Of a stretch of 64,000 bases of DNA, positions 4,075 through 37,127 are shown piece by piece. A program made the position numbers and the translations under genes. The notes beneath the pieces were generated by a model. That model was not told the DNA's origin. It was given only the letters and a program-made list of their open reading frames with translations, and ran no database searches. The DNA comes from Crossaster papposus (Eukaryota; Echinodermata; Asteroidea; Velatida; Solasteridae), in assembly GCA_037893245.1 (NCBI GenBank), contig JBAIAA010000020.1:124001-188000 (forward strand), in the 5' to 3' direction. The stretch's first letter is position 1. The number at the start of each line of letters is the position of its first letter.

Positions 4075-4094
4075 GCCCTAGAACGTGGAGGGAT

Positions 4095-4111
4095 GCCATT
4101 TGTAAAATGGC
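4095..4111. repeat. hairpin-type inverted repeat of the monomer
   Basis: GCCATTT, a 3-nt spacer GTA, then AAATGGC: a perfect 7-bp stem. It is present in essentially every monomer; rare changes include CATTCGTAAAATGG at about 26457, 29859 and 34233, which breaks one pair. Confidence 0.85.
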
Positions 4112-4331
4112 TGCTTGCAGGCTCGGGAAGTATCACTTTTCGGGAGGTGAGTTTCTTTTGGTGTGAATATAAAAAAATGTAATTGGCTAACCTACTAAAA
4201 ATTGAAAAGAAATGGAAAGATAAAGACCAAGACAATAATCTGATTGTTGTTTGAGAAACCCCAGTGATGTCGGTGTGCAAGAAACTTGGTCGTGAACATT
4301 GTTGATTTTACACCGTTTTCAATGGGACTTG

Positions 4332-4371
4332 AATTAGGCAGGTGCACCCTATAGGGTGCACCACCCTAATT
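4332..4371. repeat. 40-bp palindrome of the monomer (first of 123 copies)
   Basis: The core at 4341-4362 is perfect: GGTGCACCCTA followed by its reverse complement. With AATTAGGCA on the left and ACCCTAATT on the right it extends to 40 bp, 18 of 20 positions pairing. Weaker complementarity continues outward (AAG and CATT words), to about 25 of 32. It recurs every 486 bp. By hand count 109 copies have the perfect core, four carry GGTCC in the left arm (6772, 8717, 10175, 12120), and ten have a changed or lengthened centre (CATATAGGA or CCTATAGGA) with both GGTGCAC/GTGCACC arms intact. Confidence 0.95.
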
Positions 4372-4396
4372 GTAAGGAGAATTTCTACGCGAGCTC

Positions 4397-4404
4397 ATTT
4401 GCAT
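4397..4404 (-). promoter_or_regulatory. octamer ATTTGCAT in each monomer
   Basis: ATTTGCAT is the exact complement of the POU/Oct octamer ATGCAAAT. It is kept in both monomer families (followed by GAAAT in one, TAAAA in the other) about 35 bp right of the palindrome, so about 123 copies occur at 486-bp spacing. An 8-mer in one founder monomer can arise by chance, so function is not shown. Confidence 0.35.
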
Positions 4405-4431
4405 GAAATTTGCCCCCACAATTTCTTTTGA

Positions 4432-4446
4432 AAACGGATGCCGTTT
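4432..4446. repeat. second short hairpin of the monomer
   Basis: AAACGG, spacer ATG, then CCGTTT: a perfect 6-bp stem with a 3-nt centre, in nearly all copies. One subfamily has CCGTAT (for example 38954-38959) and two copies have GGATACCG (near 50130 and 52560), each disrupting the repeat. Confidence 0.8.
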
Positions 4447-4503
4447 GGTGAAAGAAATGGTGGGATTGTGTAAATATAGCATAGGATCAACTCCCTGGTT
4501 TTT
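4446..4503 (+). promoter_or_regulatory. possible Pol III A/B-box-like pair with T-run in the monomer
   Basis: GGATCAACTCC (4484-4494) fits the relaxed B-box GWTCRANNC fully and GGTTCRANNCC with one mismatch. TGGTGAAAGAA (4446-4456) fits the A box except for the final G and begins 38 bp upstream. TTTTT follows at 4499-4503. The arrangement recurs in almost every monomer. No tRNA fold is possible (the T stem does not pair), so this is a weak candidate internal promoter. Confidence 0.25.
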
Positions 4504-6018
4504 GAGCTTCAATCTGAGGGCAGACTTGACAAAATTACGGTTGAAAAATGGGTCCTAATTGCCCTAGAACGTGGAGGGATGCCATTTGTAAAATGGCTGC
4601 TTGCAGGCTCGGGAAGTATCACTTTTCGGGAGGTGAGTTTCTTTTGGTGTGAATATAAAAAAATGTAATTGGCTAACCTACTAAAAATTGAAAAGAAATG
4701 GAAAGATAAAGACCAAGACAATAATCTGATTGTTGTTTGAGAAACCCCAGTGATGTCGGTGTGCAAGAAACTTGGTCGTGAACATTGTTGATTTTACACC
4801 GTTTTCAATGGGACTTGAATTAGGCAGGTGCACCCTATAGGGTGCACCACCCTAATTGTAAGGAGAATTTCTACGCGAGCTCATTTGCATGAAATTTGCC
4901 CCCACAATTTCTTTTGAAAACGGATGCCGTTTGGTGAAAGAAATGGTGGGATTGTGTAAATATAGCATAGGATCAACTCCCTGGTTTTCGAGCTTCAATC
5001 TGAGGGCAGACTTGACAAAATTACGGTTGAAAAATGGGTCCTAATTGCCCTAGAACGTGGAGGGATGCCATTTGTAAAATGGCTGCTTGCAGGCTCGAGA
5101 AGTATCACTTTTCGGGAGGTGTGTTTCTTTTGGTGTGAATATTAAAAAATGTAATTGGCTAACCTACTAAAAATTGAAAAGAAATGGAAAGATAAAGACC
5201 AAGACAATAATCTGATTGTTGTTTGAGAAACCCCAGTGATGTCGGTGTGCAAGAAACTTGGTCGTGAACATTGTTGATTTTACACCGTTTTCAATGGGAC
5301 TTGAATTAGGCAGGTGCACCCTATAGGGTGCACCACCCTAATTGTAAGCAGAATTTCTACGCGAGCTCATTTGCATGAAATGTGCCCCCACAATTTCTTT
5401 TGAAAACGGATGCCGTTTGGTGAAAGAAATGGTGGGATTGTGTAAATATAGCATAGGATCAACTCCCTGGTTTTTGAGCTTCAATCTGAGGGCAGACTTG
5501 ACAAAATTACGGTTGAAAAATGGGTCCTAATTGCCCTAGAACGTGGAGGGATGCCATTTGTAAAATGGCTGCTTGCAGGCTCGGGAAGTATCACTTTTCG
5601 GGAGGTGAGTTTCTTTTGGTGTGAATATAAAAACATGTAATTGGCTAACCTACTAAAAATTGAAAAGAAATGGAAAAATAATGACCAAGACAATAATCTG
5701 ATTGTTGTTTGAGAAACCCCAGTGATGTCGGTGTGCAAGAAACTTGGTCGTGAACATTGTTGATTTTACACCGTTTTCAATGGGACTTGAATTAGGCAGG
5801 TGCACCCTATAGGGTGCACCACCCTAATTGTAAGGAGAATTTCTACGCGAGCTCATTTGCATGAAATGTGCCCCCACAATTTCTTTTGAAAACGGATGCC
5901 GTTTGGTGAAAGAAATGGTGGGATTGTGTAAATATAGCATAGGATCAACTCCCTGGTTTTTGAGTTTCAATCTGAAGGCAGACTTGACAAAATTACGGTT
6001 GAAAAATGGGTCCTAATT

Positions 6019-9000
6019 GCCCTAGAACGTGGAGGGATGCCATTTGTAAAATGGCTGCTTGCAGGCTCGGGAAGTATCACTTTTCGGGAGGTGTGTTTCT
6101 TTCGGTGTGAATATTAAAAAATGTAATTGGCTAACCTACTACAAATTGAAAAGAAATGGAAAGATAAAGACCAAGACAATAATCTGATTGTTGTTTGAGA
6201 AACCCCAGTGATGTCGGTGTGCAAGAAACTTGGTCGTGAACATTGTTGATTTTACACTCTTTTCAATGGGACTTGAATTAGGCAGGTGCACCATATAGGA
6301 GTGCACCACCCTAATTGTAAGGAACATTTCTACGCTAGCTCATTTGCATTAAAAGTGCCCCCACAATTTCTTTTGAAAACGGATGCCGTTTGGTGAAAGA
6401 AATGGTGGGATTGTGTAAATATAGCATAGGATCAACTCCCTGGTTTTCGAGCTTCAATCTGAGGGCAGACTTGACAAAATTACGGTTGAAAAATGGGTCC
6501 TAATTGCCCTAGAACGTGGAGGGATGCCATTTGTAAAATGGCTGCTTGCAGGCTCGGGAAGTATCACTTTTCGGGAGGTGTGTTTCTTTCGGTGTGAATA
6601 TTAAAAAATGTAATTGGCTAACCTACTAAAAATTGAAAAGAAATGGAAAGATAAAGACCAAGACAATAATCTGATTGTTGTTTGAGAAACCCCAGTGATG
6701 TCGGTGTGCAAGAAACTTGGTCGTGAACATTGTTGATTTTACACTCTTTTCAATGGGACTTGAATTAGGCAGGTCCACCCTATAGGGTGCACCACCCTAA
6801 TTGTAAGGAACATTTCTACGCTAGCTCATTTGCATTAAAAGTGCCCCCACAATTTCTTTTGAAAACGGATGCCGTTTGGTGAAAGAAATGGTGGGATTGT
6901 GTAAATATAGCATTGGATCAACTCCCTGGTTTTTGAGCTTCAATCCGAGGGCAGACTTGACAAAATTACGGTTGAAAAATGGGTCCTAATTGCCCTAGAA
7001 CGTGGAGGGATGCCATTTGTAAAATGGCTGCTTGCAGGCTCGAGAAGTATCACTTTTCGGGAGGTGTGTTTCTTTTGGTGTGAATATTAAAAAATGTAAT
7101 TGGCTAACCTACTAAAAATTGAAAAGAAATGGAAAGATAAAGACCAAGACAATAATCTGATTGTTGTTTGAGAAACCCCAGTGATGTCGGTGTGCAAGAA
7201 ACTTGGTCGTGAACATTGTTGATTTTACACTGTTTTCAATGGGACTTGAATTAGGCAGGTGCACCCTATAGGGTGCACCACCCTAATTGCAAGGAACATT
7301 TCTACGCTAGCTCATTTGCATTAAAAGTTTCCCCACAATTTCTTTTGAAAACGGATGCCGTTTGGTGATAGAAATAGTGGGATTGTGTAAATATAGCATA
7401 GGATCAACTCCCTGGTTTTTGAGCTTCAATCTGAGGGCAGACTTGACAAAATTACGGTTGAAAAATGGGTCCTAATTGCCCTAGAACGTGGAGGGATGCC
7501 ATTTGTAAAATGGCTGCTTGCAGGCTCGGGAAGTATCACTTTTCGGGAGGTGTGTTTCTTTCGGTGTGAATATTAAAAAATATAATTGGCTAACCTACTA
7601 AAAATTGAAAAGAAATGGAAAGATAAAGACCAAGACAATAATCTGATTGTTGTTTGAGAAACCCCAGTGATGTCGGTGTGCAAGAAACTTGGTCGTGAAC
7701 ATTGTTGATTTTACACTGTTTTCAATGGGACTTGAATTAGGCAGGTGCACCCTATAGGGTGCACCACCCTAATTGTAAGGAACATTTCTACGCTAGCTCA
7801 TTTGCATTAAAAGTGCCCCCACAATTTCTTTTGAAAACGGATGCCGTTTGGTGAAAGAAATGGTGGGATTGTGTAAATATAGCATAGGATCAACTCCCTG
7901 GTTTTTGAGCTTCAATCCGAGGGCAGACTTGACAAAATTACGGTTGAAAAATGGGTCCTAATTGCCCTAGAACGTGGAGGGATGCCATTTGTAAAATGGC
8001 TGCTTGCAGGCTCGGGAAGTATCACTTTTCGGGAGGTGTGTTTCTTTCGGTGTGAATATTAAAAAATGTAATTGGCTAACCTACTACAAATTGAAAAGAA
8101 ATGGAAAGATAAAGACCAAGACAATAATCTGATTGTTGTTTGAGAAACCCCAGTGATGTCGGTGTGCAAGAAACTTGGTCGTGAACATTGTTGATTTTAC
8201 ACTCTTTTCAATGGGACTTGAATTAGGCAGGTGCACCATATAGGAGTGCACCACCCTAATTGTAAGGAACATTTCTACGCTAGCTCATTTGCATTAAAAG
8301 TGCCCCCACAATTTCTTTTGAAAACGGATGCCGTTTGGTGAAAGAAATGGTGGGATTGTGTAAATATAGCATAGGATCAACTCCCTGGTTTTCGAGCTTC
8401 AATCTGAGGGCAGACTTGACAAAATTACGGTTGAAAAATGGGTCCTAATTGCCCTAGAACGTGGAGGGATGCCATTTGTAAAATGGCTGCTTGCAGGCTC
8501 GGGAAGTATCACTTTTCGGGAGGTGTGTTTCTTTCGGTGTGAATATTAAAAAATGTAATTGGCTAACCTACTAAAAATTGAAAAGAAATGGAAAGATAAA
8601 GACCAAGACAATAATCTGATTGTTGTTTGAGAAACCCCAGTGATGTCGGTGTGCAAGAAACTTGGTCGTGAACATTGTTGATTTTACACTCTTTTCAATG
8701 GGACTTGAATTAGGCAGGTCCACCCTATAGGGTGCACCACCCTAATTGTAAGGAACATTTCTACGCTAGCTCATTTGCATTAAAAGTGCCCCCACAATTT
8801 CTTTTGAAAACGGATGCCGTTTGGTGAAAGAAATGGTGGGATTGTGTAAATATAGCATTGGATCAACTCCCTGGTTTTTGAGTTTCAATCCGAGGGCAGA
8901 CTTGACAAAATTACGGTTGAAAAATGGGTCCTAATTGCCCTAGAACGTGGAGGGATGCCATTTGTAAAATGGCTGCTTGCAGGCTCGAGAAGTATCACTT

Positions 9001-12000
9001 TTCGGGAGGTGTGTTTCTTTTGGTGTGAATATTAAAAAATGTAATTGGCTAACCTACTAAAAATTGAAAAGAAATGGAAAGATAAAGACCAAGACAATAA
9101 TCTGATTGTTGTTTGAGAAACCCCAGTGATGTCGGTGTGCAAGAAACTTGGTCGTGAACATTGTTGATTTTACACTGTTTTCAATGGGACTTGAATTAGG
9201 CAGGTGCACCCTATAGGGTGCACCACCCTAATTGCAAGGAACATTTCTACGCTAGCTCATTTGCATTAAAAGTTCCCCCACAATTTCTTTTGAAAACGGA
9301 TGCCGTTTGGTGATAGAAATAGTGGGATTGTGTAAATATAGCATAGGATCAACTCCCTGGTTTTTGAGCTTCAATCTGAGGGCAGACTTGACAAAATTAC
9401 GGTTGAAAAATGGGTCCTAATTGCCCTAGAACGTGGAGGGATGCCATTTGTAAAATGGCTGCTTGCAGGCTCGGGAAGTATCACTTTTCGGGAGGTGTGT
9501 TTCTTTCGGTGTGAATATTAAAAAATGTAATTGGCTAACCTACTAAAAATTGAAAAGAAATGGAAAGATAAAGACCAAGACAATAATCTGATTGTTGTTT
9601 GAGAAACCCCAGTGATGTCGGTGTGCAAGAAACTTGGTCGTGAACATTGTTGATTTTACACTCTTTTCAATGGGACTTGAATTAGGCAGGTGCACCCTAT
9701 AGGGTGCACCACCCTAATTGTAAGGAACATTTCTACGCTAGCTCATTTGCATTAAAAGTGCCCCCACAATTTCTTTTGAAAACGGATGCCGTTTGGTGAA
9801 AGAAATGGTGGGATTGTGTAAATATAGCATAGGATCAACTCCCTGGTTTTCGAGCTTCAATCTGAGGGCAGACTTGACAAAATTACGGTTGAAAAATGGG
9901 TCCTAATTGCCCTAGAACGTGGAGGGATGCCATTTGTAAAATGGCTGCTTGCAGGCTCGGGAAGTATCACTTTTCGGGAGGTGTGTTTCTTTCGGTGTGA
10001 ATATTAAAAAATGTAATTGGCTAACCTACTAAAAATTGAAAAGAAATGGAAAGATAAAGACCAAGACAATAATCTGATTGTTGTTTGAGAAACCCCAGTG
10101 ATGTCGGTGTGCAAGAAACTTGGTCGTGAACATTGTTGATTTTACACTCTTTTCAATGGGACTTGAATTAGGCAGGTCCACCCTATAGGGTGCACCACCC
10201 TAATTGTAAGGAACATTTCTACGCTAGCTCATTTGCATTAAAAGTGCCCCCACAATTTCTTTTGAAAACGGATGCCGTTTGGTGAAAGAAATGGTGGGAT
10301 TGTGTAAATATAGCATTGGATCAACTCCCTGGTTTTTGAGCTTCAATCCGAGGGCAGACTTGACAAAATTACGGTTGAAAAATGGGTCCTAATTGCCCTA
10401 GAACGTGGAGGGATGCCATTTGTAAAATGGCTGCTTGCAGGCTCGAGAAGTATCACTTTTCGGGAGGTGTGTTTCTTTTGGTGTGAATATTAAAAAATGT
10501 AATTGGCTAACCTACTAAAAATTGAAAAGAAATGGAAAGATAAAGACCAAGACAATAATCTGATTGTTGTTTGAGAAACCCCAGTGATGTCGGTGTGCAA
10601 GAAACTTGGTCGTGAACATTGTTGATTTTACACTGTTTTCAATGGGACTTGAATTAGGCAGGTGCACCCTATAGGGTGCACCACCCTAATTGCAAGGAAC
10701 ATTTCTACGCTAGCTCATTTGCATTAAAAGTTCCCCCACAATTTCTTTTGAAAACGGATGCCGTTTGGTGATAGAAATAGTGGGATTGTGTAAATATAGC
10801 ATAGGATCAACTCCCTGGTTTTTGAGCTTCAATCTGAGGGCAGGCTTGACAAAATTACGGTTGAAAAATGGGTCCTAATTGCCCTAGAACGTGGAGGGAT
10901 GCCATTTGTAAAATGGCTGCTTGCAGGCTCGGGAAGTATCACTTTTCGGGAGGTGTGTTTCTTTCGGTGTGAATATTAAAAAATGTAATTGGCTAACCTA
11001 CTAAAAATTGAAAAGAAATGGAAAGATAAAGACCAAGACAATAATCTGATTGTTGTTTGAGAAACCCCAGTGATGTCGGTGTGCAAGAAACTTGGTCGTG
11101 AACATTGTTGATTTTACACTGTTTTCAATGGGACTTGAATTAGGCAGGTGCACCCTATAGGGTGCACCACCCTAATTGTAAGGAACATTTCTACGCTAGC
11201 TCATTTGCATTAAAAGTGCCCCCACAATTTCTTTTGAAAACGGATGCCGTTTGGTGAAAGAAATGGTGGGATTGTGTAAATATAGCATAGGATCAACTCC
11301 CTGGTTTTTGAGCTTCAATCCGAGGGCAGACTTGACAAAATTACGGTTGAAAAATGGGTCCTAATTGCCCTAGAACGTGGAGGGATGCCATTTGTAAAAT
11401 GGCTGCTTGCAGGCTCGGGAAGTATCACTTTTCGGGAGGTGTGTTTCTTTCGGTGTGAATATTAAAAAATGTAATTGGCTAACCTACTAAAAATTGAAAA
11501 GAAATGGAAAGATAAAGACCAAGACAATAATCTGATTGTTGTTTGAGAAACCCCAGTGATGTCGGTGTGCAAGAAACTTGGTCGTGAACATTGTTGATTT
11601 TACACTCTTTTCAATGGGACTTGAATTAGGCAGGTGCACCATATAGGAGTGCACCACCCTAATTGTAAGGAACATTTCTACGCTAGCTCATTTGCATTAA
11701 AAGTGCCCCCACAATTTCTTTTGAAAACGGATGCCGTTTGGTGAAGGAAATGGTGGGATTGTGTAAATATAGCATAGGATCAACTCCCTGGTTTTCGAGC
11801 TTCAATCCGAGGGCAGACTTGACAAAATTACGGTTGAAAAATGGGTCCTAATTGCCCTAGAACGTGGAGGGATGCCATTTGTAAAATGGCTGCTTGCAGG
11901 CTCGGGAAGTATCACTTTTCGGGAGGTGTGTTTCTTTCGGTGTGAATATTAAAAAATGTAATTGGCTAACCTACTAAAAATTGAAAAGAAATGGAAAGAT

Positions 12001-13900
12001 AAAGACCAAGACAATAATCTGATTGTTGTTTGAGAAACCCCAGTGATGTCGGTGTGCAAGAAACTTGGTCGTGAACATTGTTGATTTTACACTCTTTTCA
12101 ATGGGACTTGAATTAGGCAGGTCCACCCTATAGGGTGCACCACCCTAATTGTAAGGAACATTTCTACGCTAGCTCATTTGCATTAAAAGTGCCCCCACAA
12201 TTTCTTTTGAAAACGGATGCCGTTTGGTGAAAGAAATGGTGGGATTGTGTAAATATAGCATTGGATCAACTCCCTGGTTTTTGAGCTTCAATCCGAGGGC
12301 AGACTTGACAAAATTACGGTTGAAAAATGGGTCCTAATTGCCCTAGAACGTGGAGGGATGCCATTTGTAAAATGGCTGCTTGCAGGCTCGAGAAGTATCA
12401 CTTTTCGGGAGGTGTGTTTCTTTCGGTGTGAATATTAAAAAATGTAATTGGCTAACCTACTAAAAATTGAAAAGAAATGGAAAGATAAAGACCAAGACAA
12501 TAATCTGATTGTTGTTTGAGAAACCCCAGTGATGTCGGTGTGCAAGAAACTTGGTCGTGAACATTGTTGATTTTACACTGTTTTCAATGGGACTTGAATT
12601 AGGCAGGTGCACCCTATAGGGTGCACCACCCTAATTGTAAGGAACATTTCTACGCTAGCTCATTTGCATTAAAAGTGCCCCCACAATTTCTTTTGAAAAC
12701 GGATGCCGTTTGGTGAAAGAAATGGTGGGATTGTGTAAATATAGCATAGGATCAACTCCCTGGTTTTTGAGCTTCAATCTGAGGGCAGACTTGACAAAAT
12801 TACGGTTGAAAAATGGGTCCTAATTGCCCTAGAACGTGGAGGGATGCCATTTGTAAAATGGCTGCTTGCAGGCTCGGGAAGTATCACTTTTCGGGAGGTG
12901 TGTTTCTTTCGGTGTGAATATTAAAAAATGTAATTGGCTAACCTACTAAAAATTGAAAAGAAATGGAAAGATAAAGACCAAGACAATAATCTGATTGTTG
13001 TTTGAGAAACCCCAGTGATGTCGGTGTACAAGAAACTTGGTCGTGAACATTGTTGATTTTACACTGTTTTCAATGGGACTTGAATTAGGCAGGTGCACCC
13101 TATAGGGTGCACCACCCTAATTGTAAGGAACATTTCTACGCTAGCTCATTTGCATTAAAAGTGCCCCCACAATTTCTTTTGAAAACGGATGCCGTTTGGT
13201 GAAAGAAATGGTGGGATTGTGTAAATATAGCATAGGATCAACTCCCTGGTTTTTGAGCTTCAATCCGAGGGCAGACTTGACAAAATTACGGTTGAAAAAT
13301 GGGTCCTAATTGCCCTAGAACGTGGAGGGATGCCATTTGTAAAATGGCTGCTTGCAGGCTCGGGAAGTATCACTTTTCGGGAGGTGTGTTTCTTTCGGTG
13401 TGAATATTAAAAAATGTAATTGGCTAACCTACTAAAAATTGAAAAGAAATGGAAAGATAAAGACCAAGACAATAATCTGATTGTTGTTTGAGAAACCCCA
13501 GTGATGTCGGTGTGCAAGAAACTTGGTCGTGAACATTGTTGATTTTACACTCTTTTCAATGTGACTTGAATTAGGCAGGTGCACCCTATAGGGTGCACCA
13601 CCCTAATTGTAAGGAACATTTCTACGCTAGCTCATTTGCATTAAAAGTGCCCCCACAATTTCTTTTGAAAACGGATGCCGTTTGGTGAAAGAAATGGTGG
13701 GATTGTGTAAATATAGCATTGGATCAACTCCCTGGTTTTTGAGCTTCAATCTGAGGGCAGACTTGACAAAATTACGGTTGAAAAATGGGTCCTAATTGCC
13801 CTAGAACGTGGAGGGATGCCATTTGTAAAATGGCTGCTTGCAGGCTCGGGAAGTATCACTTTTCGGGAGGTGTGTTTCTTTCGGTGTGAATATTAAAAAA
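6019..13900 (+). repeat. array segment: family-2 monomers in a 4/3/4-monomer higher-order pattern
   Basis: Family-2 marks are AGGAACATTTCTACGCTAGCTC, TTAAAAGTG and GTGTGTTTCTTTCGG. The rare variant GGTCCACCC recurs at 6772, 8717, 10175 and 12120, spacings of 4, 3 and 4 monomers. ATTGCAAGG follows at 7289, 9234 and 10692 with the same first two spacings. The 487-bp centre variant marks the unit start at about 6286, 8232 and 11639. Confidence 0.8.
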
Positions 13901-16900
13901 TGTAATTGGCTAACCTACTAAAAATTGAAAAGAAATGGAAAGATAAAGACCAAGACAATAATCTGATTGTTGTTTGAGAAACCCCAGTGATGTCGGTGTA
14001 CAAGAAACTTGGTCGTGAACATTGTTGATTTTACACTGTTTTCAATGGGACTTGAATTAGGCAGGTGCACCCTATAGGGTGCACCACCCTAATTGTAAGG
14101 AACATTTCTACGCTAGCTCATTTGCATTAAAAGTGCCCCCACAATTTCTTTTGAAAACGGATGCCGTTTGGTGAAAGAAATGGTGGGATTGTGTAAATAT
14201 AGCATATGATCAACTCCCTGGTTTTTGAGCTTCAATCCGAGGGCAGACTTGACAAAATTACGGTTGAAAAATGGGTCCTAATTGCCCTAGAACGTGGAGG
14301 GATGCCATTTGTAAAATGGCTGCTTGCAGGCTCGGGAAGTATCACTTTTCGGGAGGTGTGTTTCTTTCGGTGTGAATATTAAAAAATGTAATTGGCTAAC
14401 CTACTAAAAATTGAAAAGAAATGGAAAGATAAAGACCAAGACAATAATCTGATTGTTGTTTGAGAAACCCCAGTGATGTCGGTGTGCAAGAAACTTGGTC
14501 GTGAACATTGTTGATTTTACACTCTTTTCAATGTGACTTGAATTAGGCAGGTGCACCCTATAGGGTGCACCACCCTAATTGTAAGGAACATTTCTACGCT
14601 AGCTCATTTGCATTAAAAGTGCCCCCACAATTTCTTTTGAAAACGGATGCCGTTTGGTGAAAGAAATGGTGGGATTGTGTAAATATAGCATTGGATCAAC
14701 TCCCTGGTTTTTGAGCTTCAATCCGAGGGCAGACTTGACAAAATTACGGTTGAAAAATGGGTCCTAATTGCCCTAGAACGTGGAGGGATGCCATTTGTAA
14801 AATGGCTGCTTGCAGGCTCGAGAAGTATCACTTTTCGGGAGGTGTGTTTCTTTTGGTGTGAATATTAAAAAATGTAATTGGCTAACCTACTAAAAATTGA
14901 AAAGAAATGGAAAGATAAAGACCAAGACAATAATCTGATTGTTGTTTGAGAAACCCCAGTGATGTCGGTGTGCAAGAAACTTGGTCGTGAACATTGTTGA
15001 TTTTACACTGTTTTCAATGGGACTTGAATTAGGCAGGTGCACCCTATAGGGTGCACCACCCTAATTGTAAGGAACATTTCTACGCTAGCTCATTTGCATT
15101 AAAAGTGCCCCCACAATTTCTTTTGAAAACGGATGCCGTTTGGTGAAAGAAATGGTGGGATTGTGTAAATATAGCATAGGATCAACTCCCTGGTTTTTGA
15201 GCTTCAATCTGAGGGCAGACTTGACAAAATTACGGTTGAAAAATGGGTCCTAATTGCCCTAGAACGTGGAGGGATGCCATTTGTAAAATGGCTGCTTGCA
15301 GGCTCGGGAAGTATCACTTTTCGGGAGGTGTGTTTCTTTCGGTGTTAATATTAAAAAATGTAATTGGCTAACCTACTAAAAATTGAAAAGAAATGGAAAG
15401 ATAAAGACCAAGACAATAATCTGATTGTTGTTTGAGAAACCCCAGTGATGTCGGTGTACAAGAAACTTGGTCGTGAACATTGTTGATTTTACACTCTTTT
15501 CAATGGGACTTGAATTAGGCAGGTGCACCCTATAGGGTGCACCACCCTAATTGTAAGGAACATTTCTACGCTAGCTCATTTGCATTAAAAGTGCCCCCAC
15601 AATTTCTTTTGAAAACGGATGCCGTTTGGTGAAAGAAATGGTGGGATTGTGTAAATATAGCATAGGATAAACTCCCTGGTTTTTGAGCTTCAATCCGAGG
15701 GCAGACTTGACAAAATTACGGTTGAAAAATGGGTCCTAATTGCCCTAGAACGTGGAGGGATGCCATTTGTAAAATGGCTGCTTGCAGGCTCGGGAAGTAT
15801 CACTTTTCGGGAGGTGTGTTTCTTTCGGTGTGAATATTAAAAAATGTAATTGGCTAACCTACTAAAAATTGAAAAGAAATGGAAAGATAAAGACCAAGAC
15901 AATAATCTGATTGTTGTTTGAGAAACCCCAGTGATGTCGGTGTGCAAGAAACTTGGTCGTGAACATTGTTGATTTTACACTCTTTTCAATGGGACTTGAA
16001 TTAGGCAGGTGCACCCTATAGGGTGCACCACCCTAATTGTAAGGAACATTTCTACGCTAGCTCATTTGCATTAAAAGTGCCCCCACAATTTCTTTTGAAA
16101 ACGGATGCCGTTTGGTGAAAGAAATGGTGGGATTGTGTAAATATAGCATTGGATCAACTCCCTGGTTTTTGAGCTTCAATCCGAGGGCAGACTTGACAAA
16201 ATTACGGTTGAAAAATGGGTCCTAATTGCCCTAGAACGTGGAGGGATGCCATTTGTAAAATGGCTGCTTGCAGGCTCGAGAAGTATCACTTTTCGGGAGG
16301 TGTGTTTCTTTTGGTGTGAATATTAAAAAATGTAATTGGCTAACCTACTAAAAATTGAAAAGAAATGGAAAGATAAAGACCAAGACAATAATCTGATTGT
16401 TGTTTGAGAAACCCCAGTGATGTCGGTGTGCAAGAAACTTGGTCGTGAACATTGTTGATTTTACACTGTTTTCAATGGGACTTGAATTAGGCAGGTGCAC
16501 CCTATAGGGTGCACCACCCTAATTGTAAGGAACATTTCTACGCTAGTTCATTTGCATTAAAAGTGCCCCCACAATTTCTTTTGAAAACGGATGCCGTTTG
16601 GTGAAAGAAATGGTGGGATTGTGTAAATATAGCATAGGATCAACTCCCTGGTTTTTGAGCTTCAATCTGAGGGCAGACTTGACAAAATTACGGTTGAAAA
16701 ATGGGTCCTAATTGCCCTAGAACGTGGAGGGATGCCATTTGTAAAATGGCTGCTTGCAGGCTCGGGAAGTATCACTTTTCGGGAGGTGTGTTTCTTTCGG
16801 TGTGAATATTAAAAAATGTAATTGGCTAACCTACTAAAAATTGAAAAGAAATGGAAAGATAAAGACCAAGACAATAATCTGATTGTTGTTTGAGAAACCC

Positions 16901-19900
16901 CAGTGATGTCGGTGTGCAAGAAACTTGGTCGTGAACATTGTTGATTTTACACTCTTTTCAATGGGACTTGAATTAGGCAGGTGCACCCTATAGGGTGCAC
17001 CACCCTAATTGTAAGGAACATTTCTACGCTAGCTCATTTGCATTAAAAGTGCCCCCACAATTTCTTTTGAAAACGGATGCCGTTTGGTGAAAGAAATGGT
17101 GGGATTGTGTAAATATAGCATTGGATCAACTCCCTGGTTTTTGAGCTTCAATCCGAGGGCAGACTTGACAAAATTACGGTTGAAAAATGGGTCCTAATTG
17201 CCCTAGAACGTGGAGGGATGCCATTTGTAAAATGGCTGCTTGCAGGCTCGAGAAGTATCACTTTTCGGGAGGTGTGTTTCTTTTGGTGTGAATATTAAAA
17301 AATGTAATTGGCTAACCTACTAAAAATTGAAAAGAAATGGAAAGATAAAGACCAAGACAATAATCTGATTGTTGTTTGAGAAACCCCAGTGATGTCGGTG
17401 TGCAAGAAACTTGGTCGTGAACATTGTTGATTTTACACTGTTTTCAATGGGACTTGAATTAGGCAGGTGCACCCTATAGGGTGCACCACCCTAATTGTAA
17501 GGAACATTTCTACGCTAGTTCATTTGCATTAAAAGTGCCCCCACAATTTCTTTTGAAAACGGATGCCGTTTGGTGAAAGAAATGGTGGGATTGTGTAAAT
17601 ATAGCATAGGATCAACTCCCTGGTTTTTGAGCTTCAATCTGAGGGCAGACTTGACAAAATTACGGTTGAAAAATGGGTCCTAATTGCCCTAGAACGTGGA
17701 GGGATGCCATTTGTAAAATGGCTGCTTGCAGGCTCGGGAAGTATCACTTTTCGGGAGGTGTGTTTCTTTCGGTGTGAATATTAAAAAATGTAATTGGCTA
17801 ACCTACTAAAAATTGAAAAGAAATGGAAAGATAAAGACCAAGACAATAATCTGATTGTTGTTTGAGAAACCCCAGTGATGTCGGTGTGCAAGAAACTTGG
17901 TCGTGAACATTGTTGATTTTACACTGTTTTCAATGGGACTTAAATTAGGCAGGTGCACCCTATAGGGTGCACCACCCTAATTGTAAGGAACATTTCTACG
18001 CTAGCTCATTTGCATTAAAAGTGCCCCCACAATTTCTTTTGAAAACGGATGCCGTTTGGTAAAAGAAATGGTGGGATTGTGTAAATATAGCATAGGATCA
18101 ACTCCCTGGTTTTTGAGCTTCAATCCGAGGGCAGACTTGACAAAATTACGGTTGAAAAATGGGTCCTAATTGCCCTAGAACGTGGAGGGATGCCATTTGT
18201 AAAATGGCTGCTTGCATGCTCGGGAAGTATCACTTTTCGGGAGGTGTGTTTCTTTTGGTGTGAATATTAAAAAATGTAATTGGCTAACCTACTAAAAATT
18301 GAAAAGAAATGGAAAGATAAAGACCAAGACAATAATCTGATTGTTGTTTGAGAAACCCCAGTGATGTCGGTGTGCAAGAAACTTGGTCGTGAACATTGTT
18401 GATTTTACACTGTTTTCAATGGGACTTGAATTAGGCAGGTGCACCCTATAGGGTGCACCACCCTAATTGTAAGGAACATTTCTACGCTAGTTCATTTGCA
18501 TTAAAAGTGCCCCCACAATTTCTTTTGAAAACGGATGCCGTTTGGTGAAAGAAATGGTGGGATTGTGTAAATATAGCATAGGATCAACTCCCTGGTTTTT
18601 GAGCTTCAATCTGAGGGCAGACTTGACAAAATTACGGTTGAAAAATGGGTCCTAATTGCCCTAGAACGTGGAGGGATGCCATTTGTAAAATGGCTGCTTG
18701 CAGGCTCGGGAAGTATCACTTTTCGGGAGGTGTGTTTCTTTCGGTGTGAATATTAAAAAATGTAATTGGCTAACCTACTAAAAATTGAAAAGAAATGGAA
18801 AGATAAAGACCAAGACAATAATCTGATTGTTGTTTGAGAAACCCCAGTGATGTCGGTGTGCAAGAAACTTGGTCGTGAACATTGTTGATTTTACACTGTT
18901 TTCAATGGGACTTAAATTAGGCAGGTGCACCCTATAGGGTGCACCACCCTAATTGTAAGGAACATTTCTACGCTAGCTCATTTGCATTAAAAGTGCCCCC
19001 ACAATTTCTTTTGAAAACGGATGCCGTTTGGTGAAAGAAATGGTGGGATTGTGTAAATATAGCATAGGATCAACTCCCTGGTTTTTGAGCTTCAATCCGA
19101 GGGCAGACTTGACAAAATTACGGTTGAAAAATGGGTCCTAATTGCCCTAGAACGTGGAGGGATGCCATTTGTAAAATGGCTGCTTGCATGCTCGGGAAGT
19201 ATCACTTTTCGGGAGGTGTGTTTCTTTCGGTGTGAATATTAAAAAATGTAATTGGCTAACCTACTAAAAATTGAAAAGAAATGGAAAGATAAAGACCAAG
19301 ACAATAATCTGATTGTTGTTTGAGAAACCCCAGTGATGTCGGTGTACAAGAAACTTGGTCGTGAACATTGTTGATTTTACACTGTTTTCAATGGGACTTG
19401 AATTAGGCAGGTGCACCCTATAGGGTGCACCACCCTAATTGTAAGGAACATTTCTACGCTAGCTCATTTGCATTAAAAGTGCCCCCACAATTTCTTTTGA
19501 AAACGGATGCCGTTTGGTGAAAGAAATGGTGGGATTGTGTAAATATAGCATAGGATCAACTCCCTGGTTTTTGAGCTTCAATCCGAGGGCAGACTTGACA
19601 AAATTACGGTTGAAAAATGGGTCCTAATTGCCCTAGAACGTGGAGGGATGCCATTTGTAAAATGGCTGCTTGCAGGCTCGGGAAGTATCACTTTTCGGGA
19701 GGTGTGTTTCTTTCGGTGTGAATATTAAAAAATGTAATTGGCTAACCTACTAAAAATTGAAAAGAAATGGAAAGATAAAGACCAAGACAATAATCTGATT
19801 GTTGTTTGAGAAACTCCAGTGATGTCGGTGTGCAAGAAACTTGGTCGTGAACATTGTTGATTTTACACTCTTTTCAATGTGACTTGAATTAGGCAGGTGC

Positions 19901-22900
19901 ACCCTATAGGGTGCACCACCCTAATTGTAAGGAACATTTCTACGCTAGCTCATTTGCATTAAAAGTGCCCCCACAATTTCTTTTGAAAACGGATGCCGTT
20001 TGGTGAAAGAAATGGTGGGATTGTGTAAATATAGCATTGGATCAACTCCCTGGTTTTTGAGCTTCAATCCGAGGGCAGACTTGACAAAATTACGGTTGAA
20101 AAATGGGTCCTAATTGCCCTAGAACGTGGAGGGATGCCATTTGTAAAATGGCTGCTTGCAGGCTCGAGAAGTATCACTTTTCGGGAGGTGTGTTTCTTTT
20201 GGTGTGAATATTAAAAAATGTAATTGGCTAACCTACTAAAAATTGAAAAGAAATGGAAAGATAAAGACCAAGACAATAATCTGATTGTTGTTTGAGAAAC
20301 CCCAGTGATGTCGGTGTGCAAGAAACTTGGTCGTGAACATTGTTGATTTTACACTGTTTTCAATGGGACTTGAATTAGGCAGGTGCACCCTATAGGGTGC
20401 ACCACCCTAATTGTAAGGAACATTTCTACGCTAGCTCATTTGCATTAAAAGTGCCCCCACAATTTCTTTTGAAAACGGATGCCGTTTGGTGAAAGAAATG
20501 GTGGGATTGTGTAAATATAGCATAGGATCAACTCCCTGGTTTTTGAGCTTCAATCTGAGGGCAGACTTGACAAAATTACGGTTGAAAAATGGGTCCTAAT
20601 TGCCCTAGAACGTGGAGGGATGCCATTTGTAAAATGGCTGCTTGCAGGCTCGGGAAGTATCACTTTTCGGGAGGTGTGTTTCTTTCGGTGTTAATATTAA
20701 AAAATGTAATTGGCTAACCTACTAAAAATTGAAAAGAAATGGAAAGATAAAGACCAAGACAATAATCTGATTGTTGTTTGAGAAACCCCAGTGATGTCGG
20801 TGTACAAGAAACTTGGTCGTGAACATTGTTGATTTTACACTCTTTTCAATGGGACTTGAATTAGGCAGGTGCACCCTATAGGGTGCACCACCCTAATTGT
20901 AAGGAACATTTCTACGCTAGCTCATTTGCATTAAAAGTGCCCCCACAATTTCTTTTGAAAACGGATGCCGTTTGGTGAAAGAAATGGTGGGATTGTGTAA
21001 ATATAGCATAGGATCAACTCCCTGGTTTTTGAGCTTCAATCCGAGGGCAGACTTGACAAAATTACGGTTGAAAAATGGGTCCTAATTGCCCTAGAACGTG
21101 GAGGGATGCCATTTGTAAAATGGCTGCTTGCAGGCTCGGGAAGTATCACTTTTCGGGAGGTGTGTTTCTTTCGGTGTGAATATTAAAAAATGTAATAGGC
21201 TAACCTACTAAAAATTGAAAAGAAATGGAAAGATAAAGACCAAGACAATAATCTGATTGTTGTTTGAGAAACCCCAGTGATGTCGGTGTGCAAGAAACTT
21301 GGTCGTGAACATTGTTGATTTTACACTCTTTTCAATGGGACTTGAATTAGGCAGGTGCACCCTATAGGGTGCACCACCCTAATTGTAAGGAACATTTCTA
21401 CGCTAGCTCATTTGCATTAAAAGTGCCCCCACAATTTCTTTTGAAAACGGATGCCGTTTGGTGAAAGAAATGGTGGGATTGTGTAAATATAGCATTGGAT
21501 CAACTCCCTGGTTTTTGAGCTTCAATCCGCGGGCAGACTTGACAAAATTACGGTTGAAAAATGGGTCCTAATTGCCCTAGAACGTGGAGGGATGCCATTT
21601 GTAAAATGGCTGCTTGCAGGCTCGAGAAGTATCACTTTTCGGGAGGTGTGTTTCTTTTGGTGTGAATATTAAAAAATGTAATTGGCTAACCTACTAAAAA
21701 TTGAAAAGAAATGGAAAGATAAAGACCAAGACAATAATCTGATTGTTGTTTGAGAAACCCCAGTGATGTCGGTGTGCAAGAAACTTGGTCGTGAACATTG
21801 TTGATTTTACACTGTTTTCAATGGGACTTGAATTAGGCAGGTGCACCCTATAGGGTGCACCACCCTAATTGTAAGGAACATTTCTACGCTAGTTCATTTG
21901 CATTAAAAGTGCCCCCACAATTTCTTTTGAAAACGGATGCCGTTTGGTGAAAGAAATGGTGGGATTGTGTAAATATAGCATAGGATCAACTCCCTGGTTT
22001 TTGAGCTTCAATCTGAGGGCAGACTTGACAAAATTACGGTTGAAAAATGGGTCCTAATTGCCCTAGAACGTGGAGGGATGCCATTTGTAAAATGGCTGCT
22101 TGCAGGCTCGGGAAGTATCACTTTTCGGGAGGTGTGTTTCTTTCGGTGTGAATATTAAAAAATGTAATTGGCTAACCTACTAAAAATTGAAAAGAAATGG
22201 AAAGATAAAGACCAAGACAATAATCTGATTGTTGTTTGAGAAACCCCAGTGATGTCGGTGTGCAAGAAACTTGGTCGTGAACATTGTTGATTTTACACTC
22301 TTTTCAATGGGACTTGAATTAGGCAGGTGCACCCTATAGGGTGCACCACCCTAATTGTAAGGAACATTTCTACGCTAGCTCATTTGCATTAAAAGTGCCC
22401 CCACAATTTCTTTTGAAAACGGATGCCGTTTGGTGAAAGAAATGGTGGGATTGTGTAAATATAGCATTGGATCAACTCCCTGGTTTTTGAGCTTCAATCC
22501 GAGGGCAGACTTGACAAAATTACGGTTGAAAAATGGGTCCTAATTGCCCTAGAACGTGGAGGGATGCCATTTGTAAAATGGCTGCTTGCAGGCTCGAGAA
22601 GTATCACTTTTCGGGAGGTGTGTTTCTTTTGGTGTGAATATTAAAAAATGTAATTGGCTAACCTACTAAAAATTGAAAAGAAATGGAAAGATAAAGACCA
22701 AGACAATAATCTGATTGTTGTTTGAGAAACCCCAGTGATGTCGGTGTGCAAGAAACTTGGTCGTGAACATTGTTGATTTTACACTGTTTTCAATGGGACT
22801 TGAATTAGGCAGGTGCACCCTATAGGGTGCACCACCCTAATTGTAAGGAACATTTCTACGCTAGTTCATTTGCATTAAAAGTGCCCCCACAATTTCTTTT

Positions 22901-23580
22901 GAAAACGGATGCCGTTTGGTGAAAGAAATGGTGGGATTGTGTAAATATAGCATAGGATCAACTCCCTGGTTTTTGAGCTTCAATCTGAGGGCAGACTTGA
23001 CAAAATTACGGTTGAAAAATGGGTCCTAATTGCCCTAGAACGTGGAGGGATGCCATTTGTAAAATGGCTGCTTGCAGGCTCGGGAAGTATCACTTTTCGG
23101 GAGGTGTGTTTCTTTCGGTGTGAATATTAAAAAATGTAATTGGCTAACCTACTAAAAATTGAAAAGAAATGGAAAGATAAAGACCAAGACAATAATCTGA
23201 TTGTTGTTTGAGAAACCCCAGTGATGTCGGTGTGCAAGAAACTTGGTCGTGAACATTGTTGATTTTACACTGTTTTCAATGGGACTTAAATTAGGCAGGT
23301 GCACCCTATAGGGTGCACCACCCTAATTGTAAGGAACATTTCTACGCTAGCTCATTTGCATTAAAAGTGCCCCCACAATTTCTTTTGAAAACGGATGCCG
23401 TTTGGTAAAAGAAATGGTGGGATTGTGTAAATATAGCATAGGATCAACTCCCTGGTTTTTGAGCTTCAATCCGAGGGCAGACTTGACAAAATTACGGTTG
23501 AAAAATGGGTCCTAATTGCCCTAGAACGTGGAGGGATGCCATTTGTAAAATGGCTGCTTGCATGCTCGGGAAGTATCACT
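13900..23580 (+). repeat. array segment: 5,346-bp (11-monomer) higher-order repeat, almost two copies
   Basis: Independent rare variants all recur exactly 5,346 bp (11 x 486) later: GTGACTTG at 14533 and 19879, GGTGTTAAT at 15341 and 20687, CGCTAGTTCA at 16541 and 21887, CTTAAATTAG at 17939 and 23285, CATGCTCGG at 18215 and 23561. The match breaks left of about 13.9 kb and right of about 23.58 kb. Inside it, CGCTAGTTC at 16541, 17513 and 18485 shows a nested 972-bp dimer. Confidence 0.85.
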
Positions 23581-26160
23581 TTTCGGGAGGTGTGTTTCTT
23601 TCGGTGTGAATATTAAAAAATGTAATTGGCTAACCTACTAAAAATTAAAAAGAAATGGAAAGATAAAGACCAAGACAATAATCTGATTGTTGTTTGAGAA
23701 ACCCCAGTGATGTCGGTGTGCAAGAAACTTGGTCGTGAACATTGTTGATTTTACACTCTTTTCAATGGGACTTGAATTAGGCAGGTGCACCCTATAGGGT
23801 GCACCACCCTAATTGTAAGGAACATTTCTACGCTAGCTCATTTGCATTAAAAGTGCCCCCACAATTTCTTTTGAAAACGGATGCCGTTTGGTGAAAGAAA
23901 TGGTGGGATTGTGTAAATATAGCATTGGATCAACTCCCTGGTTTTTGAGCTTCAATCCGAGGGCAGACTTGACAAAATTACGGTTGAAAAATGGGTCCTA
24001 ATTGCCCTAGAACGTGGAGGGATGCCATTTGTAAAATGGCTGCTTGCAGGCTCGGGAAGTATCACTTTTCGGGAGGTGTGTTTCTTTCGGTGTGAATATT
24101 AAAAAATGTAATTGGCTAACCTACTAAAAATTAAAAAGAAATGGAAAGATAAAGACCAAGACAATAATCTGATTGTTGTTTGAGAAACCCCAGTGATGTC
24201 GGTGTGCAAAAACTTGGTCGTGAACATTGTTGATTTTACACTCTTTTCAATGGGACTTGAATTAGGCAGGTGCACCCTATAGGGTGCACCACCCTAATTG
24301 TAAGGAACATTTCTACGCTAGCTCATTTGCATTAAAAGTGCCCCCACAATTTCTTTTGAAAACGGATGCCGTTTGGTGAAAGAAATGGTGGGATTGTGTA
24401 AATATAGCATAGGATCAACTCCCTGGTTTTTGAGCTTCAATCTGAGGGCAGACTTGACAAAATTACGGTTGAAAAATGGGTCCTAATTGCCCTAGAACGT
24501 GGAGGGATGCCATTTGTAAAATGGCTGCTTGCAGGCTCGGGAAGTATCACTTTTCGGGAGGTGTGTTTCTTTCGGTGTGAATATTAAAAAATGTAATTGG
24601 CTAACCTACTAAAAATTGAAAAGAAATGGAAAGATAAAGACCAAGACAATAATCTGATTGTTGTTTGAGAAACCCCAGTGATGTCGGTGTACAAGAAACT
24701 TGGTCGTGAACATTGTTGATTTTACACTGTTTTCAATGGGACTTGAATTAGGCAGGTGCACCCTATAGGGTGCACCACCCTAATTGTAAGGAACATTTCT
24801 ACGCTAGCTCATTTGCATTAAAAGTGCCCCCACAATTTCTTTTGAAAACGGATGCCGTTTGGTGAAAGAAATGGTGGGATTGTGTAAATATAGCATAGGA
24901 TCAACTCCCTGGTTTTTGAGCTTCAATCCGAGGGCAGACTTGACAAAATTACGGTTGAAAAATGGGTCCTAATTGCCCTAGAACGTGGAGGGATGCCATT
25001 TGTAAAATGGCTGCTTGCAGGCTCGGAAAGTATCACTTTTCGGGAGGTGTGTTTCTTTCGGTGTGAATATTAAAAAATGTAATTGGCTAACCTACTAAAA
25101 ATTGAAAAGAAATGGAAAGATAAAGACCAAGACAATAATCTGATTGTTGTTTGAGAAACCCCAGTGATGTCGGTGTACAAGAAACTTGGTCGTGAACATT
25201 GTTGATTTTACACTGTTTTCAATGGGACTTGAATTAGGCAGGTGCACCCTATAGGGTGCACCACCCTAATTGTAAGGAACATTTCTACGCTAGCTCATTT
25301 GCATTAAAAGTGCCCCCACAATTTCTTTTGAAAACGGATGCCGTTTGGTGAAAGAAATGGTGGGATTGTGTAAATATAGCATAGGATCAACTCCCTGGTT
25401 TTTGAGCTTCAATCCGAGGGCAGACTTGACAAAATTACGGTTGAAAAATGGGTCCTAATTGCCCTAGAACGTGGAGGGATGCCATTTGTAAAATGGCTGC
25501 TTGCAGGCTCGGAAAGTATCACTTTTCGGGAGGTGTGTTTCTTTCGGTGTGAATATTAAAAAATGTAATTGGCTAACCTACTAAAAATTGAAAAGAAATG
25601 GAAAGATAAAGACCAAGACAATAATCTGATTGTTGTTTGAGAAACCCCAGTGATGTCGGTGTGCAAGAAACTTGGTCGTGAACATTGTTGATTTTACACT
25701 CTTTTCAATGGGACTTGAATTAGGCAGGTGCACCCTATAGGGTGCACCACCCTAATTGTAAGGAACATTTCTACGCTAGCTCATTTGCATTAAAAGTGCC
25801 CCCACAATTTCTTTTGAAAACGGATGCCGTTTGGTGAAAGAAATGGTGGGATTGTGTAAATATAGCATAGGATCAACTCCCTGGTTTTTGAGCTTCAATC
25901 CGAGGGCAGACTTGACAAAATTACGGTTGAAAAATGGGTCCTAATTGCCCTAGAACGTGGAGGGATGCCATTTGTAAAATGGCTGCTTGCAGGCTCGGGA
26001 AGTATCACTTTTCGGGAGGTGTGTTTCTTTCGGTGTGAATATTAAAAAATGTAATTGGCTAACCTACTAAAAATTGAAAAGAAATGGAAAGATAAAGACC
26101 AAGACAATAATCTGATTGTTGTTTGAGAAACCCCAGTGATGTCGGTGTGCAAGAAACTTG
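23581..26160 (+). repeat. array segment: transition with the only 485-bp monomer
   Basis: Family-2 monomers with mixed marks (ATTAAAAAGAAATGG, CTCGGAAAG, GTGTACAAG). GTGTGCAAAAACTTGG near 24204 lacks one base found in every other copy and is the only 485-bp unit counted. Two successive CTCGGAAAG monomers near 25022 and 25508 foreshadow those in the next segment. Confidence 0.7.
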
Positions 26161-35100: not shown

Positions 35101-35200
35101 ATTGGATCAACTCCCTGGTTTTTGAGCTTCAATCCGAGGGCAGACTTGACAAAATTACGGTTGAAAAATGGGTCCTAATTGCCCTAGAACGTGGAGGGAT
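26160..35200 (+). repeat. array segment: 7-monomer (3,402 bp) higher-order repeat and derivatives
   Basis: CAAGGGGACTTAAAT occurs at 26192, 26678, 29594, 30080, 32024, 33968 and 34454, spacings of 1, 6, 1, 4, 4 and 1 monomers. GTTACTTTTGG pairs with it at 26509, 29911 and 34285 (7 and 9 monomers apart). AATTGACCTAG lies at 27401, 30803 and 32747 (7 and 4 apart). The unit was duplicated whole once and in shortened form afterwards. Confidence 0.85.
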
Positions 35201-35666
35201 GCCATTTGTAAAATGGCTGCTTGCAGGCTCGGGAAGTATCACTTTTCGGGAGGTGTGTTTCTTTCGGTGTGAATATTAAAAAATGTAATTGGCTAACCTA
35301 CTAAAAATTAAAAAGAAATGGAAAGATAAAGACCAAGACAATAATCTGATTGTTGTTTGAGAAACCCCAGTGATGTCGGTGTGCAAGAAACTTGGTCGTG
35401 AACATTGTTGATTTTACACTCTTTTCAATGGGACTTGAATTAGGCAGGTGCACCCTATAGGGTGCACCACCCTAATTGTAAGGAACATTTCTACGCTAGC
35501 TCATTTGCATTAAAAGTGCCCCCACAATTTCTTTTGAAAACGGATGCCGTTTGGTGAAAGAAATGGTGGGATTGTGTAAATATAGCATTGGATCAACTCC
35601 CTGGTTTTTGAGCTTCAATCCGAGGGCAGACTTGACAAAATTACGGTTGAAAAATGGGTCCTAATT

Positions 35667-37127
35667 GCCCTAGAACGTGGAGGGATGCCATTTGTAAAAT
35701 GGCTGCTTGCAGGCTCGGGAAGTATCACTTTTCGGGAGGTGTGTTTCTTTCGGTGTGAATATTAAAAAATGTAATTGGCTAACCTACTAAAAATTGAAAA
35801 GAAATGGAAAGATAAAGACCAAGACAATAATCTGATTGTTGTTTGAGAAACCCCAGTGATGTCGGTGTGCAAGAAACTTGGTCGTGAACATTGTTGATTT
35901 TACACTCTTTTCAATGGGACTTGAATTAGGCAGGTGCACCATATAGGAGTGCACCACCCTAATTGTAAGGAACATTTCTACGCTAGCTCATTTGCATTAA
36001 AAGTGCCCCCACAATTTCTTTTGAAAACGGATGCCGTTTGGTGAAAGAAATGGTGGGATTGTGTAAATATAGCATTGGATCAACTCCCTGGTTTTTGAGC
36101 TTCAATCCGAGGGCAGACTTGACAAAATTACGGTTGAAAAATGGGTCCTAATTGCCCTAGAACGTGGAGGGATGCCATTTGTAAAATGGCTGCTTGCAGG
36201 CTCGGGAAGTATCACTTTTCGGGAGGTGTGTTTCTTTCGGTGTGAATATTAAAAAATGTAATTGGCTAACCTACTAAAAATTGAAAAGAAATGGAAAGAT
36301 AAAGACCAAGACAATAATCTGATTGTTGTTTGAGAAACCCCAGTGATGTCGGTGTGCAAGAAACTTGGTCGTGAACATTGTTGATTTTACACTCTTTTCA
36401 ATGGGACTTGAATTAGGCAGGTGCACCATATAGGAGTGCACCACCCTAATTGTAAGGAACATTTCTACGCTAGCTCATTTGCATTAAAAGTGCCCCCACA
36501 ATTTCTTTTGAAAACGGATGCCGTTTGGTGAAAGAAATGGTGGGATTGTGTAAATATAGCATTGGATCAACTCCCTGGTTTTTGAGCTTCAATCCGAGGG
36601 CAGACTTGACAAAATTACGGTTGAAAAATGGGTCCTAATTGCCCTAGAACGTGGAGGGATGCCATTTGTAAAATGGCTGCTTGCAGGCTCGGGAAGTATC
36701 ACTTTTCGGGAGGTGTGTTTCTTTCGGTGTGAATATTAAAAAATGTAATTGGCTAACCTACTAAAAATTGAAAAGAAATGGAAAGATAAAGACCAAGACA
36801 ATAATCTGATTGTTGTTTGAGAAACCCCAGTGATGTCGGTGTGCAAGAAACTTGGTCGTGAACATTGTTGATTTTACACTCTTTTCAATGGGACTTGAAT
36901 TAGGCAGGTGCACCATATAGGAGTGCACCACCCTAATTGTAAGGAACATTTCTACGCTAGCTCATTTGCATTAAAAGTGCCCCCACAATTTCTTTTGAAA
37001 ACGGATGCCGTTTGGTGAAAGAAATGGTGGGATTGTGTAAATATAGCATTGGATCAACTCCCTGGTTTTTGAGCTTCAATCCGAGGGCAGACTTGACAAA
37101 ATTACGGTTGAAAAAGGGGTCCTAATT
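35667..37127 (+). repeat. array segment: three successive near-identical 487-bp monomers
   Basis: GCCCTAG starts at 35667, 36154, 36641 and 37128, exactly 487 bp apart. All three carry the CATATAGGA palindrome centre, and they match each other almost base for base; the third ends GAAAAAGGGG instead of GAAAAATGGG. This is very recent single-monomer amplification. Confidence 0.85.

Follow-up and report, generated by a model that had tools for sequence, protein, structure and literature searches.

A 486-bp satellite of Crossaster papposus whose monomer is very probably a complete non-autonomous DNA transposon

The satellite array and its junction palindrome

The DNA analysed here, referred to as the window, is a stretch of 64,000 nucleotides from a contig of Crossaster papposus (C20:124001-188000). 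Tandem Repeats Finder describes an array that occupies the window from position 4075 to position 64000 as 123.3 copies of a 486-bp period, with 98% matches over 59.9 kb. An array that is this long, homogenised (98% matches) and arranged head to tail is what is understood by satellite DNA. The features of the array and its first units are as follows.

4075..64000, plus strand: satellite array with a period of 486 bp (Tandem Repeats Finder, position of the edge, probes along the contig)
4332..4371, no strand: near-palindrome made of the right end of one unit, the junction and the left end of the next unit (inverted repeat I1)
4332..4349, plus strand: putative right terminal inverted repeat of the leading unit, AATTAGGCAGGTGCACCC, matching the left one at 16 of 18 positions in the window consensus
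4350..4353, no strand: TATA junction, read from the window junctions as one copy of a 4-bp target site (TNTA) between elements
4354..4371, plus strand: putative left terminal inverted repeat, GGGTGCACCACCCTAATT, from the comparison of terminal repeats
4354..4835, plus strand: first full 482-bp element of the array, GGGTGCACC...GGTGCACCC, with the same extent as solo copies on contigs C1 and C116
4415..4464, plus strand: second, weaker hairpin inside the unit, at monomer positions 64-113 (inverted repeat I3; self-match of the consensus)

The arms of the near-palindrome (4332-4351 and 4352-4371) are 20 nt each, are 90% complementary (18 of 20 pairs) and meet without a spacer at the centre CCTA/TAGG. 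The initial annotation had placed a near-palindrome with this centre in every monomer, and this was borne out at all 123 junctions of the window. With up to 6 edits allowed, the junction core GGTGCACCCTATAGGGTGCACC was found 123 times, 109 times exactly and 14 times with one or two edits, and the 122 spacings between cores are 486 bp in 111 cases, 487 bp in 10 and 485 bp in one. Scored without a spacer, the best dyad of the circular consensus reaches 15.0, compared with a maximum of 11.0 in 500 dinucleotide shuffles (0 of 500 reach it), and the single-stranded DNA of positions 4320-4385 has a folding energy of -15.9 kcal/mol (z -5.06), matched by 0 of 200 shuffles. The annotation had also followed the match of the two sides outward from the centre. 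Here the 20-bp arms stand, whereas the outer AAG and CATT line up only if a one-base gap is introduced; the CATT that was annotated is absent where it was placed, the monomer reading GGAGAATTTC there, and 96 of the 122 monomers have the C (alignment column 30) that completes CATT.

When the array is cut from palindrome to palindrome it yields 122 complete monomers with a mean difference of 8.7 alignment columns. In the array part of window positions 1-6000, for which frames were listed, the unit has no transposase of its own, the longest stop-to-stop frame wholly in the array being 94 aa. A hammerhead-type ribozyme was sought with Rfam in the same 6,000 positions, and none was among the four matches up to E = 1, which comprised three to mir-548 and one to mir-458, all far below the gathering score. 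A structured RNA made from the monomer was considered and set aside for want of a clear case: the consensus fold has z values of -3.7 (plus strand) and -2.8 (minus strand), which become -1.6 and -0.4 without the end repeats. The first monomer folded as RNA has a z of -5.0. An octamer, ATTTGCAT, which we take to be a POU site motif, lies near the left end of the unit (window 4397-4404) and is present in the consensus; it may be a chance occurrence.

Solo copies and the ends of the element

The window's own genome (G000, 1.02 Gb) was searched for further copies. An exact search with a 25-bp tag from the left end gave 15,260 matches (8,890 forward and 6,370 reverse; 0 with the backwards control), which at 486 bp per copy would amount to about 7.4 Mb. 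The roughly 123-fold expansion proposed by the annotation thus fits the 123 junctions of the window, but the copies in the genome number thousands. The exact junction core was also sought in viral contigs, with 0 matches.

Copies outside arrays were sought with the pattern BTAGGGTGCACCACCCTAATT, in which the base before TAGGG may not be A, so that ordinary TATA junctions are skipped. This pattern matched the genome 1,725 times (189 forward and 1,536 reverse; 0 with the backwards control), and solo copies were drawn from the first 100 of these matches. Seven contigs have a single match among the first 100 of 1,725; the one on C4 lies in an array, and the six others are lone copies, as judged over the 0.9 to 3.0 kb read around each. 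One of the six, on C143, is decayed and partial, covering positions 1-275 of the window consensus only, at 80.8%. The other five have both ends. Measured from GGG to CCC, the copies on C1 and C116 are each 482 bp long and match consensus positions 1-486 at 94.2% and 96.1%, respectively, and the copy on C140 is 493 bp long and matches positions 1-485 at 91.9%. Two shorter copies lack about 100 bp inside, one on C58 (380 bp; positions 1-69 and 170-486) and one on C195 (374 bp; positions 1-48 and 170-485). Both resume at monomer position 170, and a deletion common to the two was considered as proof of mobility and rejected, since their left breakpoints differ (69 and 48) and the unit tree separates them.

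The left end of a lone copy was fixed by the pattern and the right end was free, and all five of the free right ends stop at the palindrome. The test suggested in the annotation, a search for solo units that end at the palindrome centre, therefore came out in its favour in five of the six lone copies, and the proposal that the monomer consists of transposon ends joined head to tail is supported by these solo copies with the same two ends. The ten sequences that flank these copies (194 to 1,503 bp) have no mutual similarity. Dispersed copies with the same ends and unrelated flanks are what is expected of a miniature inverted-repeat transposable element (MITE), and so are a short unit and terminal inverted repeats at both ends, which in the five solos match at 15 to 18 of 18 positions: 18 in C195, 17 in C116, 16 in C1 and C58, as in the window consensus, and 15 in C140. 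On contig C105, the junction arms read 20 of 20 with TA included, among the junctions displayed, and substitutions in the left end are present in 15 of 40 junctions. Given the perfect arms on C105 and the perfect repeats of the C195 copy, the two mismatches in the window look like decay.

What flanks the solo copies bears on where the element stops. The flanking 4-mers to the left and right are TTTA/TATA in three solos, TTTA/TTTA in one and TGTA/TGTA in one, so TNTA stands on both sides in all five, with identical 4-mers in two and a different second base in three; the left TA was imposed by the pattern. The pattern also barred A at the second left base, which made copies with TATA on the left invisible to the search. 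A random control, in which 0 of 20,000 draws reached the 17 of 20 flank matches, overstates the case, since the left TA was imposed in all five. On the right side, which was free of the pattern, TNTA is present in five of five solos, and it could also belong to the element. A 482-bp element running from GGG to CCC plus a flanking 4-mer fits better than a 486-bp one running from TAGGG to CCCTA, and refines the annotated unit of roughly 486 bp. The former is preferred because two of the five solos end otherwise than in CCCTA, with right flanks that read CCC-TTTA (C195) and CCC-TGTA (C140).

Our best reading of the unit is therefore a 482-bp element that is bounded by 18-bp terminal inverted repeats and flanked by TNTA at either end, and from these five solos we take the target site to be 4-bp TNTA, perhaps mostly TATA. 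If the site is TATA, the sequence CCC-TATA-GGG at the junction would be two element ends around exactly one copy of the site (482 + 4 = 486). TATA is present in 109 of the 109 window junctions with exact ends, the 14 variant junctions not being counted. Tc1/mariner and Sola2 elements were considered as possible transposase donors. With Tc1/mariner elements the window element shares a TA site, but TA beside CCC, which Tc1/mariner needs, fails in two of the five solos (C195 and C140); TA lies directly outside both ends in the other three, and the failures could be later mutations. Sola2 copies have AWWT-type target sites according to the source consulted (PMC3627910), and as far as that description goes Sola2, with its AT-rich 4-bp sites, resembles the window element in the length of the site and differs from it in the sequence, AWWT-type versus TNTA. 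The array edge (GCCCTAGAA) was also considered as piggyBac-like, and this was rejected because TTAA is absent beside it.

Origin of the arrays and competing explanations

We consider it very probable that each monomer represents a whole non-autonomous DNA transposon, and that the satellite was born from this MITE by way of TATA or TATATTA dimers plus unequal exchange. The basis for this reading is observed: solo copies, junction types, tree positions, block duplications and linkage across the junction. The choice between double insertion and a circle, and the number of origins, we infer. The MITE would be 482 bp long with 18-bp terminal inverted repeats GGGTGCACCACCCTAATT, would lack a long reading frame and would insert at TNTA. 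The palindrome would then consist of the right end of one copy, one copy of the TATA site and the left end of the next. In a first step, a second copy may have inserted into a target-site copy of the first, or an excision circle may have kept one site copy; the outcome would be a dimer in head-to-tail order whose units are separated by one TATA. In a second step, unequal exchange and block duplication would have expanded the dimer into long, locally homogenised arrays. The process would have taken place at least twice from different family members, once with a TATA junction and once with a TATATTA junction.

The junction types of other arrays and a tree of units speak to the number of births. 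Between 86 and 106 kb on C105, 40 junctions were found, 38 with TATATTA and 2 with TACATTA; C223 has TATATTA in three of three junctions within 1.5 kb, and the junctions of C186 have TATA and, locally, TGTA. What separates neighbouring elements is thus 4 bp (TATA) in the window but 7 bp on C105 and C223, and the 7-bp junction does not equal one copy of a 4-bp site. The tree was built from 36 units (33 different) with five solos and no outgroup, and 15 of its 30 inner branches are open; it samples 36 units out of many thousands, and its groupings could be blurred by conversion between arrays. It groups six C105 units with the solos of C1 and C140 (99/98), places the C58 solo as sister to 23 units of C20, C4 and C186 (98/94), and sets the two C223 units apart (100/96), so that C105 and C223 share TATATTA yet stand apart. 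The label "solo" requires three changes on the tree, and 8 of 500 shufflings of the labels require as few. Given the junction types and the position of solo copies among the array clades, arrays probably arose at least twice, as separate tandem births from different family members with a TATA and a TATATTA junction, respectively.

The data leave double insertion and an excision circle both standing as the first step and do not decide between them. According to the latter, an excised circle closed through one site copy was amplified by rolling circle and the concatemer was reinserted; within the MITE reading we regard this as a real possibility, if a somewhat less than even one. The single 4-bp site between the ends suits a circle as well as it suits double insertion, and a concatemer inserted at random phase would be expected to have an edge such as that of the window array, where position 4075 corresponds to monomer position 210, away from the palindrome and the element end. 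A review sets rolling-circle routes beside double insertion, and lists both, with unequal exchange, among satellite mechanisms (PMC12628747). What counts against the circle is the array on C105. It starts with an element end, and in front of this end stands TATATTA, the same 7 bp as between its units, as if the array sat at its founding insertion, although the CCC that precedes the TATATTA could be the end of a cut-off unit. Since the solo element, the junction and the array are all present in this genome, with more than one junction type, counts of junctions and short arrays can test double insertion against circle amplification.

A more far-reaching form of the MITE origin, which we find rather doubtful, is that the element seeds its own arrays. 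Each insertion at TATA, its favoured target, would leave TATA between two inverted ends, and this symmetric site would draw further insertions; separate arrays would be founded by different members with the spacer as a birth certificate, and the result would be a major, possibly centromeric satellite.

The order of events might also be reversed, an older array having come first and a transposase that recognises the dyad having cut out single monomers and inserted them elsewhere, so that the solos would be offspring of the array. We regard this as improbable. A dyad with a TA-rich centre would be a plausible accidental site for a transposase, and the C58 solo, sister to the C20-type units and 99.0% identical to one C20 unit, could have come out of an array. 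The solos of C1, C116, C140 and C195, however, fall outside the C20-type clade in the unrooted 36-unit tree, those of C1 and C140 being with the C105 array; the inverted repeat of C195 is perfect over 18 bp versus 16 of 18 in the window consensus; and the same ends are joined through different spacers in different arrays, which would not be expected from one ancestral array.

Very unlikely, in our estimate, is an explanation that dispenses with the transposon, the palindrome being a structural or protein-binding dyad of an ordinary satellite (a cruciform, a centromere-type dyad or a recombination site). Satellites with dyads are known, and the palindrome is the strongest dyad of the monomer and folds well. 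In six of eight distance classes, pairs of sites that straddle the junction have a lower mean r2 than pairs within a monomer, mostly by a small margin, which leaves room for a mild excess of exchange at the junction. Such a dyad leaves unexplained why solo copies end at it. Linkage of one group of variants through the junction is strong, column 450 of one monomer being associated with columns 30, 41 and 55 of the monomer that follows (r2 0.81, D' 1.0). The arms are also about as variable as the rest of the monomer (pi 0.0156 versus 0.0176, with 221 of 486 forty-base windows less variable), they hold 5 of the 48 segregating sites, and the stem is disrupted by variants such as CCATATAGGAG. In the MITE reading, the palindrome, which varies like the remaining monomer, would be a record of origin, with no present function of, or selection on, the dyad detected. 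A Helitron-type 3' terminus, with the array as rolling-circle product, was suggested by a hairpin with a 9-bp stem and CTAA within a few bases after it, and can be practically dismissed, since Helitrons are described as lacking terminal inverted repeats and ending in 5'-TC...CTRR-3' (PMC10741241), whereas the solo copies are inverted-repeated at both ends and stop in the centre of the hairpin rather than after CTAA.

The window array bears traces of its turnover. Eight blocks of 1,575 to 3,551 bp are repeated exactly at distances of 4 to 16 monomers, and monomer types occur in repeated blocks along the array; present turnover is therefore by local block exchange. A divergent haplotype block (alignment columns 286-450 and 29-59) spans the junction, its right part being present in about 26 of 122 monomers, and looks as if it came from exchange with a diverged array.

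Known systems and the surroundings of the array

Satellites of this kind are already known, and it is the completeness, the scale and the probable repeated birth that set the window satellite apart. The Bari1 array in the h39 heterochromatin of Drosophila melanogaster has roughly 80 head-to-tail copies, each without the first two nucleotides (PMC8834629). Bari1 clusters, which belong to Tc1/mariner, are like the window array, as far as they are described there, in consisting of complete DNA transposons joined precisely head to tail by a common junction, and in numbering more than one. The window family differs in that it would be a 482-bp non-autonomous element with thousands of copies, at least two junction types and, in our reading, a 4-bp site at the junction. 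That 2022 review regards the head-to-tail Bari1 cluster as being without a comparable described example (PMC8834629); by this account the window satellite would be such an example, and a far larger one. For hobo, dimers and a 16-copy tandem are reviewed together with the double-insertion model of McGurk and Barbash 2018 (PMC12628747). As summarised there, insertion into a target-site duplication gives element-site-element, followed by expansion, which is like the window junction; hobo reaches 16 copies, whereas the window element makes a whole satellite family.

Satellites have also been derived from MITE or foldback elements, among them Xstir and miDNA4 of Xenopus and Tetris TIR-220 of Drosophila virilis (PMC12628747; PMC4079207). 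In these, as presented in the sources, the repeat unit is an internal or end segment, whereas in the window the unit would be the element in full, from one end to the other. D1100 of rye, HindIII of oysters and BIV160 of bivalves are listed in reviews as MITE-derived satellites (PMC9659126; PMC6947457), and since our comparison extends to the listing alone, one of them could be closer to the window satellite. In the open-licence literature consulted we met no satellite in which entire MITEs follow one another head to tail with the target site kept between them, several of the MITE-derived satellites there being known to us by name only. The origins of satellites are usually lost because arrays erase them, and in this genome the solo element occurs alongside the junction and the array.

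Beyond the window, the array extends along its contig to C20:1,130,921, and the places sampled between are all satellite except for two interruptions. At C20:900,307, a 185-bp element-like insert (CAGAGGCGTG...CACGCCAATG) lies at monomer position 209/210, the same monomer position as the left edge of the array. At about C20:950,200-954,070, a 3.9-kb transposon with ends TAGTCCGGCGGATATGTG lies inside the TATA of a satellite junction, and a junction can therefore serve as a target. This transposon has three open stretches on the plus strand (210, 217 and 417 aa), and no Pfam family above the cut-off was found for the 217- and 417-aa stretches. The orientation of the array flips near C20:954,620, and its right edge is an inverted copy of the left edge (C20:1,130,921 and 128,074). 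The two flanks are 97.08% identical over 9,111 bp, with 216 mismatches and 8 gap openings. Either two haplotypes have been folded together through the array or there is a true inverted duplication; about 1 Mb is therefore not safely the length of one natural array. On C4 (595 kb) the satellite is present in eight of eight sampled places; it is absent from the first 3 kb of C1, C2, C3, C5, C6 and C10 and from the first 1.5 kb and last 10 kb of C20.

The 4-kb left flank of the array within the window contains only short matches to the satellite, of 10 to 30 bp, the best of them being 18 bp long (E 0.018). Cysteine-rich, receptor-like exons adjoin the left edge of the array: exon-like stretches lie at window positions 1733-1894, 2768-3001 and 3694-3885, the last ending about 190 bp before the array, and the first and third have weak Ephrin_rec_like or ELAPOR-like matches that are below the Pfam cut-offs. 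A foldback element with long inverted arms occupies positions 464-988 (ends TTAACCAGTT and AACTGGTTAA), and a second one occupies positions 2048-2351 (arms CACTCGGAAAGGGCATG and CATGCCCTTTCCTAGTG). At about 3422-3600 there is a sequence (GGTGTAGTGGTTA ... GGGTTTGATTCC) that, by eye, we take to be a tRNA-like SINE.
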